Below the pieces are notes generated by a model. That model ran no database searches. It saw nothing but the letters and a program-made list of their open reading frames with translations, and was not told the origin of the DNA. Made by a program: the position numbers and the translations under genes. Positions 31,585 through 36,493 of a DNA stretch of 44,861 nt are shown here, in pieces. This DNA comes from Gammaproteobacteria bacterium (GTDB taxonomy: Bacteria; Pseudomonadota; Gammaproteobacteria; Pseudomonadales; Azotimanducaceae): assembly GCA_026707045.1 (NCBI GenBank), contig JAPOXO010000089.1:1-44861 (forward strand), read 5' to 3'. Every line of letters starts with the position of its first letter. Positions within the stretch are counted from its first letter, which is position 1.

Positions 31585-32460
31585 GTGAGTAGCTACACCT
31601 TCGCCGCACCTACTTCAATTGATGAAGCTCTTTCCGTCCTTGCGAATTCGTCTCGGAGAGGCGAACGAGCTCAAGTTTTGGCGGGAGGCACTGACGTCAT
31701 CGTTCAGATGAGATCGTTCGACAACGAGCCCCGTTTGCTTGTCGATGTCAAGAAGCTTGCTGAAACAAACGAAGTCAGTATTGGCGAGGATGAAGTATTC
31801 ATAGGATCTGCTATAGCTTCTGGCGTGCTGAACGAGAATGACGAACTTAAGCGCATGTTTCCGGGCTTGCTAGAGTCGGCCGATTTGATTGGTTCCACTC
31901 AGATTCAAGGTCGAGCCAGCATTGGGGGAAATTTGTGCAATTCTTCTCCTGCAGGAGACACTATTCCTGCCTTGATAGTCAACTCGTCAGTGTGTGTAAT
32001 CGCCAACAGCAATGGCAATCGGGAAGTTCCAGTTGAGGACTTCGTGACGGGTGTTGGCACAAACTGCATGTCGGCAGAAGAATTTTTAATTGGCTTCAAA
32101 ATTCCACGACCACCGGCGCGAACGGGTGACGCATATTTGAGATTCATTCCACGTACAGAGATGGACATTGCTGTTGCGGGCGCTGGAGTTTCGGTAACGT
32201 TCGACGATAGTGGAGTATGCACTAGAGCTCGTGTAAGCATCGGTGCTGTGGCTCCAACGGCATTGCTTGTGGCAGACGCAGCAAACGCTTTGATTGGTAC
32301 TCAGGTAGACGATTCGGCTCTGCGAGCCGCGGAAGCTGCTTGTAGTGCGGCTGCGTCACCAATCACTGACAAACGAGGAACTGTCGAATACCGCAGGAAG
32401 GTGGTGGGCGTGTTGTGCCGGCGTGCCGGAACGATTGCACGCGACAGGGCGCTGGCGTAA
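31585..32460 (+). CDS. Molybdenum hydroxylase FAD subunit (CoxM/CutM-like)
   Basis: The medium subunit of a xanthine-oxidase-family hydroxylase, which passes electrons from the iron-sulphur subunit through FAD to an acceptor. The 291-residue protein has the FAD motifs AGGTDVIVQMR (about residues 33-43) and TQIQGRASIGGNLCNSSPAGD (around residue 110). The usual C-terminal domain ends with YRRKVVGVLCRRA. The start is GTG 31585 with GGGGAG upstream. The order FAD, 2Fe-2S, Mo subunit is that of cox clusters, but the active-site motif of the large subunit shows it is not a CO dehydrogenase. The substrate is unknown. Confidence 0.92.
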   Translation: MSSYTFAAPTSIDEALSVLANSSRRGERAQVLAGGTDVIVQMRSFDNEPRLLVDVKKLAETNEVSIGEDEVFIGSAIASGVLNENDELKRMFPGLLESADLIGSTQIQGRASIGGNLCNSSPAGDTIPALIVNSSVCVIANSNGNREVPVEDFVTGVGTNCMSAEEFLIGFKIPRPPARTGDAYLRFIPRTEMDIAVAGAGVSVTFDDSGVCTRARVSIGAVAPTALLVADAANALIGTQVDDSALRAAEAACSAAASPITDKRGTVEYRRKVVGVLCRRAGTIARDRALA

Positions 32461-32501: not shown

Positions 32502-32981
32502 ATGAAAAAGGTACACGTTTCGACAACTGTCAACGGCCAACCGGAAGAAGCTTTATGTGAAGTACATCAGTCGTTGTTGGACTTGCTGCGCGACGAGCTA
32601 GGACTTACAGGTACCAAGGAAGGATGCGGAACCGGTGATTGTGGAGCATGCACAGTTCTTTTGGACGGCAGATTGGTTTGTTCGTGTTTGGTTCTTGGCG
32701 TCGAGGCGGAAGGCAAGGAAGTTACCACGATTGAAGGTATCGCGGATCCGGATAGATTGCATGTTGTTCAACAGAAGTTCCTTGAACATGCGGCACTTCA
32801 GTGCGGAATTTGCACGCCAGGCTTTATAGTCGCAGCGAAGGCTTTGCTTGACAAGAATCCGGACCCGGACGAAACAACGATTCGATACTGGTTGGCTGGT
32901 AACTTGTGCCGTTGTACGGGTTACGACAAAATTGTTCGAGCCGTTCAGGACGCCGCGCAAGAATTGGCCCAAAGTAGTTAG
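32502..32981 (+). CDS. Molybdenum hydroxylase 2Fe-2S subunit (CoxS-like)
   Basis: The 159-residue small subunit carries two [2Fe-2S] clusters. The plant-ferredoxin-like cluster uses Cys42, Cys47, Cys50 and Cys62 ([16 protein letters not shown]). The second, alpha-helical cluster uses Cys101, Cys104, Cys136 and Cys138 (CGICTPGF and CRCTGY). All eight ligands are present, so this subunit looks functional. It starts at ATG 32502, 41 bases after the FAD subunit, and is followed 14 bases later by the large subunit. Confidence 0.95.
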
Positions 32982-32995
32982 GACAGGAGAAAACC

Positions 32996-35218
32996 ATGGC
33001 AGAAGCATTAGATTTGAAAGCAATCGGCACACGTCCGATTCGTCCGGATGGCGTTGACAAAGTTACGGGTCGCGCCAATTTTGGTGCGGACATGGCATTG
33101 CCTGGGATGATTCACGCAAAGGTGCTGAGAAGCCCCTACGCTCATGCGCGCATTAAGAGCATCGACCTATCCAAGGCTTTGGAATTGGACGGGGTTTTTG
33201 CAGCGATTTGTGGACGCGATCTTCCCCAAGAGGGCGCAAATGACCTAAGCATCAACATTCTCGCTCGCGAGAAGGCTTTGTATCACGGTCATGCGGTTGC
33301 CGCAGTAGCTGCAAGTTCGGCTGCCTTGGCTGACCGCGCACTCGATCTCATCGAAGTTGACTATGAAGAGCTGGATCCTGTCCTGACCATCGATGATGCA
33401 ATCGCGAACGGAGCTACGTTGGTCAACGAAAACATGTACACAAATGGTGATCGATCCCAGCCGCCCAGCAACGTCGCTGCACAGCAAAAGTTCGAAAGAG
33501 GCGACGTGGATAAAGGATTTTCAGAAGCCGATGTTGTAGTCGAGGAAGAGTATCGAGTTCCCACGGCACATCAAGGCTACATCGAACCCCATGCGTGTAT
33601 CGCGGACATCAACGAAGCAGGTCGTGCGACCGTTTGGTGCTGCACACAGGGACAGTTCGATGTACGAAGCATGACGGCTGGCGTGCTCAATAAGAAAGTA
33701 TCCGATATCAAAGTGATTCCATCGGAGATCGGAGGTGGATTTGGCGGAAAGACAACCATCTATCTGGAACCTGTCGCAGTGAAACTCTCCGAGATGTCCG
33801 GTCGACCAGTGAAGATGGTCATGAATCGCGAAGAGGTCTTCCGAGCTACCGGGCCAACTTCGGCAACTCTGTGCCGCATAAAGGTTGGTGCGAAGAGAGA
33901 CGGAACAATAACCGCTGCCACCGCGTGGTTGGCCTATGAGGCCGGTGCGTTTCCCGGTGCTCCAGTGGGACCGGGATGCATGTCTGTTTTAGCGCCTTAC
34001 AACCTTGAAAACTTGCGAATCGAAGGTCTGGATGTATTGGTCAACAAGCCCAAAGTGGCTGCGTAGCGGGCGCCCGGCGCACCTCAGTCGTTGCCCGCCA
34101 TGGAGTGCACCATCGCCGAGATTGCCCGAAAGATCGAAATGGACCCACTCGACCTTAGGCTTAAGAATGCCGCTGATGAAGGTACGGTGGCTCCGTATGG
34201 ACCGAAATTTCCCCCAATCGGATTGGTGGAATGTCTCAAGGAAGCGCGGAAACATCCAAACTATCTGAGTCAGAAAGGCGAAGGAGTGGGGCGAGGAGTC
34301 GCGGTCGGCTTCTGGTTCAACATTGGCATGCAATCAAGTGCGGAGGTCAGGATCGCCGAGAACGGTGCGGTCACCATCATGGAAGGAAGCCCCGACATTG
34401 GTGGATCTCGTGCGTCAATGTGTCTTATGGCTGCTGAGACGTTAGGAGTTTCCTACGACACCATCAACGCCCATGTTGGTGATACTGAAGCGACCGGATT
34501 CTGCAATGTGACTGGCGGCAGTAGGACTACGTTTGCCACTGGATTGGCAGTAGTACAAGCATGTGAAGACATCATCGCGCAATGTAAGGAACGAGCTGCG
34601 TTGACGTGGGATCTTGATGTGGATCAAGTCGATTGGGAAGAAGGAAAGGCCGTACCAAAACCTGGAGTCAATGCAGATGTTCAACCGCTTTCGCTTGCAG
34701 ACATAGCAAGGTCGGCTGGTCGAACAGGAGGTCCGCTACTCGGACGAGCCAGCTTGAACGCACAAGGACCAGGAGCATCGTTTTCCGTTAACTGGACGGA
34801 TGTAACCGTAGACCGCGATACTGGAAAGGTGGATGTCTTGGCTTTCACCGCAGTTCAGGATGCAGGAAGAGCAATTCATCCAGCATACGTGGAAGGACAA
34901 ATGCAGGGCGGTGCAGTGCAAGGTTTGGGATGGGCCCTCAATGAGGAGTACATTTATGATCAGAAAGGCGTGATGGAAAATGCAGGATTTCTCGACTATC
35001 GAGTTCCGGTAGCATCCGACATGCCAATGATCGAATGTCAGATTGTTGAGGTTCCGAATCCATCGCATCCCTATGGTGTAAGAGGTGTTGGAGAAACTCC
35101 CATCGTCGCACCGTTGGCCGCAACATCCAATGCGGTTCGGGACGTGCTGGGCTATCGCATCAACGATTTGCCGCTGTCACCTCCAAGGGTCTTGGCATCG
35201 CTGGACGAGAGCAACTAG
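32996..35218 (+). CDS. Molybdenum hydroxylase large subunit, interrupted by in-frame TAG
   Basis: This is the molybdopterin-cytosine/ molybdopterin-binding catalytic subunit of the xanthine oxidase family. One frame of 741 codons runs from ATG 32996 (AGGAG upstream) to 35218, with a TAG at 34064-34066 as codon 357. Before it are RPDGVDKVTGRA, the Mo-binding GGGFGGK (246-252) and NREEVF. After it are RAPGAPQS, GGSRTTFATG, VEGQMQGGAVQGLGWAL and the catalytic Glu in GVGETP. The TAG replaces the Tyr of the active-site A-Y-R loop (AYRCSFR in CO dehydrogenase); Ala at the Cys position argues against CO oxidation. It may be a nonsense mutation, a base-call error (TAC to TAG) or a readthrough codon. 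Both halves are well conserved around it. Confidence 0.85.
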
Positions 35219-35331: not shown

Positions 35332-35580
35332 TTGGGTTTGGCTAAGGTAGTCTTTCCAGACCATTTGCTCACGCACACCAACGGCGAGCGTGAACTGAAC
35401 GTCGAATGCAATTCATTTCGAAGCTTGGTTCGTGCATTGGATGCAAAATTCCCAGGAATCGAAGAGGTGCTCAGTAAAACGGCCGTTGCAATTGACGGAC
35501 AGATTTATCAAGATGCTTGGCTTGAGAGAATTGGTCCTGATAGTGAAGTCTTCTTTATGCAGCGCATCGAAGGGGGCTAG
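35332..35580 (+). CDS. MoaD/ThiS-like ubiquitin-fold protein ending in Gly-Gly
   Basis: An 82-residue protein (80 from the second TTG at 35338). The predicted beta-grasp pattern includes the strand KVVFPDHLL, a helix SLVRALDAKFPGIEEVL, AVAIDGQ and VFFMQRIEGG at the C-terminus. A terminal Gly-Gly is the activation site of sulphur carriers such as MoaD and ThiS. Position directly after a molybdenum hydroxylase suggests a role in cofactor or active-site sulphur supply, but this is inference; no activating (MoaB/ThiF-type) enzyme lies nearby. The start is TTG with AAGG upstream. A 113-base spacer before it shows no gene. Confidence 0.75.
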   Translation: MGLAKVVFPDHLLTHTNGERELNVECNSFRSLVRALDAKFPGIEEVLSKTAVAIDGQIYQDAWLERIGPDSEVFFMQRIEGG

Positions 35581-35599: not shown

Positions 35600-36493
35600 A
35601 TGCCAAAACTTGTCAACTTGGGTTCGTTGTGCGTCGACAACGTCTACCACGTGCAGAGCATTGCGCGAGCGGGAGAGACAGTCACAAGCCTAGGTCACGA
35701 AGTACATCCCGGCGGTAAAGGACTGAACCAATCCCTGGCGGCTGCTCGTGCTGGCGCAGAAGTCGTACATGTCGGATGCGTAGGGTCAGACGGTGGATCG
35801 CTTGTCGATGTCTTGAGCGGATCCGGCGTAGATGTTTCTTACATAAGAACTCTGGAGAGTCCATCGGGTTCCGCTGTGATTCAAGTGGATGCTCACGGTC
35901 AGAATGCAATATTCATTACCGGAGGAGCAAATCGGCTTGTCAGTCGCGATCAAGTAGATACCGCAATCGAATTGCTTGATTCCGATGACTGGCTGTTGCT
36001 GCAAAACGAAATCAACGATCTGGACTATGTGCTTGATGCGGCGGAGGCACATGGAGCCAACACTGCATTCAATGTAGCTCCTGTTGATGGTCGGGAATCT
36101 GAGTACTCTTATTCGGCCGTGTCAATGTTGATCCTCAACGAAATCGAGGCAGGTGCACTGGCTCAAACCGACGACCATCTTCAGGCTTTCACGACTCTTC
36201 GGTCATCGTACCCCGCAACTCAGATCATACTCACGCTTGGTCGCGAAGGCCTGCGGTATGCACTGGGCAACAAGACTCTGGAGTTGCCAGCGTTTGATGT
36301 TGAAGTAATTGACGAAACCGCAGCGGGCGATGCGTTTATTGGGTTCTACATGGCAGCGGTACTGCGCGCCGAGTCGACCTATGTCTCGTTGCGCGAGGCT
36401 TCAGCTGCCGGAGCACTTGCTGTCACCAAGACAGGTGCAGCGACATCTATTCCATATAGAACGGCTGTGGAGAGCTTTATCGCTAACTATTGA
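35600..36493 (+). CDS. Ribokinase-family (PfkB) sugar kinase
   Basis: A 297-residue kinase. The family marks are NLGSLCVDNVYHV at the N-terminus, HPGGKGLNQSLAAARAGA (substrate Gly-Gly hinge), VGCVGSDGG, the ATP-side LNEIEA and the anion-hole motif DETAAGDAFIGF with catalytic Asp. It most resembles ribokinase, which makes ribose-5-phosphate. Beside a molybdenum hydroxylase, a nucleoside-salvage role (ribose released from nucleosides) is possible but unproven. It begins 19 bases after the MoaD-like gene, so it is probably in the same operon. Confidence 0.85.
   Translation: MPKLVNLGSLCVDNVYHVQSIARAGETVTSLGHEVHPGGKGLNQSLAAARAGAEVVHVGCVGSDGGSLVDVLSGSGVDVSYIRTLESPSGSAVIQVDAHGQNAIFITGGANRLVSRDQVDTAIELLDSDDWLLLQNEINDLDYVLDAAEAHGANTAFNVAPVDGRESEYSYSAVSMLILNEIEAGALAQTDDHLQAFTTLRSSYPATQIILTLGREGLRYALGNKTLELPAFDVEVIDETAAGDAFIGFYMAAVLRAESTYVSLREASAAGALAVTKTGAATSIPYRTAVESFIANY

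Follow-up and report, generated by a model that had tools for sequence, protein, structure and literature searches.

The window, i.e., the whole stretch of 44,861 nucleotides analyzed here, is contig C71 of a draft genome of 3.34 Mb (143 contigs, 94.96% complete) and encodes a molybdenum hydroxylase of the xanthine-oxidase family whose large subunit is interrupted by an in-frame TAG. Judged from the sequence, the chances are about even that this TAG is an ordinary stop codon, which breaks one of the molybdenum-hydroxylase large subunits of this genome by a recent and local loss-of-function lesion. Such a lesion would have arisen recently in the lineage as a nonsense codon accompanied by several missense changes in a stretch of 60 codons. 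The protein would break off at residue 356, within the first Mo-cofactor domain, and therefore no working large subunit is expected. Pfam and NCBIfam profiles assign the genes to a three-subunit molybdenum hydroxylase operon in the order FAD, [2Fe-2S] and Mo subunit, with the following features:

31585..32460, + strand: FAD subunit, intact (PF00941 and PF03450; deviates from 47 relatives at 1 of 124 conserved columns)
32502..32981, + strand: [2Fe-2S] subunit, intact (PF01799 and PF00111; deviates from 59 relatives at 0 of 69 conserved columns)
32996..35218, + strand: Mo-cofactor large subunit with one internal stop (PF01315, PF02738 and PF20256 across the two halves)
34064..34066, + strand: in-frame TAG at codon 357 (from the sequence; all 93 homologous stretches have Tyr)
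34067..34077, + strand: GC-only palindromic stretch CGGGCGCCCGG directly 3' of the TAG (a single copy in the window against 0.00 expected)
34091..34096, + strand: codons 366-367, Leu-Pro, mostly Met-His in relatives (93 homologous stretches)
34115..34117, + strand: codon 374, Ala, nearly always Asp in relatives (93 homologous stretches)
34241..34243, + strand: codon 416, Glu, nearly always Ala in relatives (93 homologous stretches)

The large subunit comprises 740 codons from the ATG at 32996 to the terminal TAG at 35216-35218. A single uninterrupted reading frame is expected of a Mo hydroxylase large subunit, and here it is broken at codon 357 by the sole internal stop, as an earlier, sequence-only reading of this DNA had described. 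The residues around the TAG read KVAA-stop-RAPGAPQS, and translation also bore out that the motifs GGGFGGK, GSRTT and GVGE are kept on the two sides of the stop; 3' of it the frame is open for 383 codons with conserved motifs. Scanned separately, the two halves give the family domains PF01315, PF02738 and PF20256 above their cut-offs, the upstream half covering the hammerhead domain and positions 6-207 of the MoCoBD_1 profile, the downstream half positions 210-244 of the same profile and MoCoBD_2. The substrate was left unassigned because no piece of the operon, with the large-subunit halves scanned apart, reached an NCBIfam equivalog cut-off. Elsewhere in the genome (G000:C116) a paralogue of the large subunit, 63% identical, is encoded without stops.

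Directly 3' of the Mo subunit lies a small ORF of 82 amino acids (35332-35580, + strand), which ends in Gly-Gly at its C-terminus and adjoins the operon in relatives as well (33 distinct). It has no Pfam or NCBIfam match and is presumably similar to sulfur carriers of the MoaD/ThiS type. It is followed by a PfkB-family kinase (35600-36493, + strand) with ribokinase as top NCBIfam match (218.5 bits, below the cut-off of 299.65), and this kinase is also found 3' of the operon in the related genomes G006 and G014.

Homologues were collected as 94 distinct stretches with identities down to 48%, 93 of which cover codon 357. In all 93 the codon encodes Tyr (53 TAC, 40 TAT), in agreement with the earlier placement of the stop at the tyrosine position of the family, and the same TAG, which that reading had proposed to look for in related genomes, occurs in none of them. 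The description as a catalytic position is too strong for these data, as the aligned residue in 4-hydroxybenzoyl-CoA reductase (1rm6) is Met, although the Tyr is invariant within the subfamily. Two stops flagged in homologues were discarded as counterparts, a TAA in G035 at aligned position 739 and a TAG in G032 outside aligned positions 1-738. The 63 residues around the stop have matches in 143 of 150 genomes of the family (E value 1e-8 or better), and among the matches listed none contains a stop apart from the one of the window itself. The named relatives are metagenome-assembled genomes, labeled mostly as Gammaproteobacteria or Pseudomonadales, the nearest one found being G006 with 95% protein identity. 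Compared with G006, 370 of the 740 codons carry synonymous differences and another 40, counting the stop, differ in other ways, which points to strong selection on the frame up to a recent time. A match to the large-subunit gene turned up in each of the 17 congeners searched, so that its loss would be unusual.

It was argued in the sequence-only reading that the gene shows no damage other than the stop. This argument fails, as three residues shortly after the stop, P367, A374 and E416, are absent from 57 relatives, each at least 60% identical. In total, five of the 740 positions carry a state never seen in these relatives, i.e., N138, the stop at 357, P367, A374 and E416, and four of them (the stop, P367, A374 and E416) fall within codons 357-416. 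With five positions placed at random this clustering has a P of about 0.00015; leaving out the stop, which defines the place, gives a P of about 0.002 (our own arithmetic). Departures at columns conserved to 95% are found at 357, 366, 374 and 416, again all within some 60 codons (P about 0.002). When 12 of the 57 relatives were treated similarly, they had at most three private residues in any 60 codons. Among the 93 homologous stretches, position 366 is Met in 64 and Leu, as in the window, in 2. Position 367 is His in 60, Phe in 24, Tyr in 9 and never the Pro of the window. Position 374 is Asp in 90, Asn in 2 and Ser in 1, compared with Ala in the window, and position 416 is Ala in 92 and Val in 1, compared with Glu. 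At a limit of 97% with 41 relatives, the gene of the window shows six departures, of which F720Y and A735S lie well away from the stop. This number is unexceptional, given that most of the 41 relatives have 0-7 departures and a single one has 22. From these sequence comparisons the lesion looks local and not gene-wide.

The interpretation as a young loss-of-function lesion is slightly favoured over a local base-level error of the assembly. We infer that the lesion exists in the organism itself as well as in the assembly, and that the uninterrupted paralogue makes the loss tolerable; the unusual residues at the conserved positions 367, 374 and 416 would then be due to lost selection. Against this, decay should spread over the gene and the operon, yet four of the five never-seen states lie in codons 357-416 and the partner subunits are clean. 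As slow decay would damage the whole gene, the local pattern fits better with a single recent event, with several changes in quick succession, or with an error in the local assembly or consensus. The last of these, in which poor or sparse reads or mixed strains near codons 357-416 produced a false TAG and false missense changes while the gene is intact in the organism, is a serious competitor with somewhat less than even chances. It would account for the clustering of never-seen residues beside the stop in an otherwise clean gene and operon, and the GC-only palindrome directly after the TAG may have disturbed the reads or lowered their quality. According to PMC11017572, spurious internal stops arise from low coverage and low read quality. 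The miscall and the nonsense mutation, two of the three explanations offered by the sequence-only reading, both fit the data.

An assembly error is disfavoured by the rest of the window, in which comparison with the ORFs of G006 gave no other interrupted gene. Eight matches to G006 ORFs contained stops that could be positioned; one is the large subunit, and the rest are stops before start codons or shadows on the opposite strand. Seven weaker matches with stops lie opposite ORFs. Across the window and a 400 kb sample of this genome, 22 pairs of same-frame ORFs are split by one stop, the target included, and a Pfam scan covered five pairs besides the target, four with TAG and one with TGA; four of these five are two different genes each, and one has no domain after the stop. 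No donor of a chimeric patch, which would likewise have spoken for an assembly error, was found among 146 loci at the DNA level or 150 family genomes at the protein level. A foreign or paralogous patch was discarded on the DNA level, as the best non-self match to 34001-34200 is only 76% identical (G006; 146 loci), and a donor for the 63-residue stretch was discarded on the protein level, the best matches outside the window among those listed being G014 and G006 with 86% each (150 family genomes). Codon divergence from G006 peaks at codons 351-380 and 345-384 for window sizes of 30 and 40 codons, without significance in permutations (P 0.43 and 0.10), and for a size of 20 the peak lies elsewhere than the stop region. 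Third-position GC has a borderline peak from codon 348 (P 0.05 for a size of 30, 0.12 for 25), and for non-synonymous differences from G006 the maximum is at codon 341 (size 45, P 0.03), 366 (size 20, P 0.06) or 102 (size 30).

True readthrough, the third explanation offered earlier, would mean that an amino acid is inserted at the TAG in the active-site loop, through either a suppressor tRNA or inefficient decoding by a near-cognate tRNA. If true, it would be a new case of recoding at an active-site loop; the evidence points the other way and makes it very improbable, even though 383 codons past the stop are intact and keep conserved motifs. A general reassignment of TAG is ruled out by its frequent use as terminator, ending 104 of 287 ORFs of at least 200 codons when the window and the 400 kb sample (12% of the genome) are taken together, and 118 of 320 under another length limit. 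Release factor 1 was found (501.5 bits, cut-off 423). Searching the genome for pylS, as had been proposed, returned a single PylS-like match of 23.7 bits (cut-off 178.15), which is the lysine--tRNA ligase gene lysS; pyrrolysine was discarded on this ground. The amber suppressor tRNA, likewise proposed, was sought with the Rfam model by scoring 150 of 170 first-look candidates in the 95% complete draft, and a CUA anticodon was found in none of the 36 tRNAs, whose anticodons were all read. The tRNA genes read include no tRNA-Ile, so the expected set has gaps in the draft and a suppressor tRNA could be missing from it as well. Relatives that all have Tyr and a genome that lacks readthrough machinery were to count against readthrough, and this is nearly what was found, the reservation being the completeness of the draft. 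The TAG is furthermore seen in none of the aligned homologues, and damage just past the stop is unexpected in a working protein. Still less credible is a species-specific recoded molybdenum hydroxylase, in which the single TAG would be decoded by a suppressor tRNA absent from the draft and the changes at 366, 367, 374 and 416 would represent co-adaptation around a rebuilt active-site loop.

A natural split of the large subunit into two chains, as in nicotinate dehydrogenase, also has hardly any probability. Split Mo subunits do exist, and chains A and B of PDB 3hrd match query residues 6-419 and 427-736, but this known split falls between the two Mo domains (query 419/427), whereas the TAG lies inside MoCoBD_1 (profile positions 207/210 of 244). 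Upstream of the first possible starts after the TAG, inspection of the sequence revealed nothing resembling a Shine-Dalgarno motif, and no aligned relative is broken at codon 357.

Independently of the hydroxylase, argS (3616-1904, - strand; TIGR00456, 506 bits) has ATT as apparent start codon (3616-3614). In 16 congeners with the argS N-terminus, the window included, the position at which other genera start is occupied by ATT in nine and ATC in six; the remaining one has AGC there and ATC two codons before. None of the 16 has an ATG, GTG or TTG upstream in the open argS frame, and the ATT of G006 and G014 is immediately preceded by a TAG in frame. At 14 loci of other genera, argS starts with ATG (11), GTG (2) or, in one case, ATC with ATG directly before. 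Translation of argS in this genus seems to begin at a conserved non-canonical AUU/AUC codon, which is perhaps regulatory by analogy with infC, where a non-canonical start codon is known to be regulatory. No literature joining argS with an AUU start codon was found. This start codon is more interesting than the interrupted hydroxylase gene and merits a study of its own.

Compared with known systems, pyrrolysine and other amber recoding share with the present gene the in-frame TAG in an enzyme gene; here, it occurs where neither PylS nor a CUA tRNA was found, where TAG is a common terminator and where relatives do not share it. On its own, one in-frame stop found in a draft genome says little in favour of recoding. 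Three-subunit hydroxylases of the xanthine-oxidase family, such as 4-hydroxybenzoyl-CoA reductase (1rm6) and XdhABC, correspond in having FAD, [2Fe-2S] and Mo subunits in one operon, in domain order and in motifs, the differences being the TAG in the large subunit and that no NCBIfam equivalog cut-off was reached with the halves scanned apart. Among the papers listed by a literature search, titles and the openings of abstracts gave no in-frame stop in a molybdenum hydroxylase. The broken gene described here is probably ordinary. The flanking residues need comparison with relatives before such a gene is called otherwise undamaged. Bacterial pseudogenes with an internal stop, real or spurious, as covered in PMC11017572, resemble it in the one internal stop, the intact gene in relatives and the draft assembly, and what sets the present gene apart from them is that several missense changes are clustered beside the stop.
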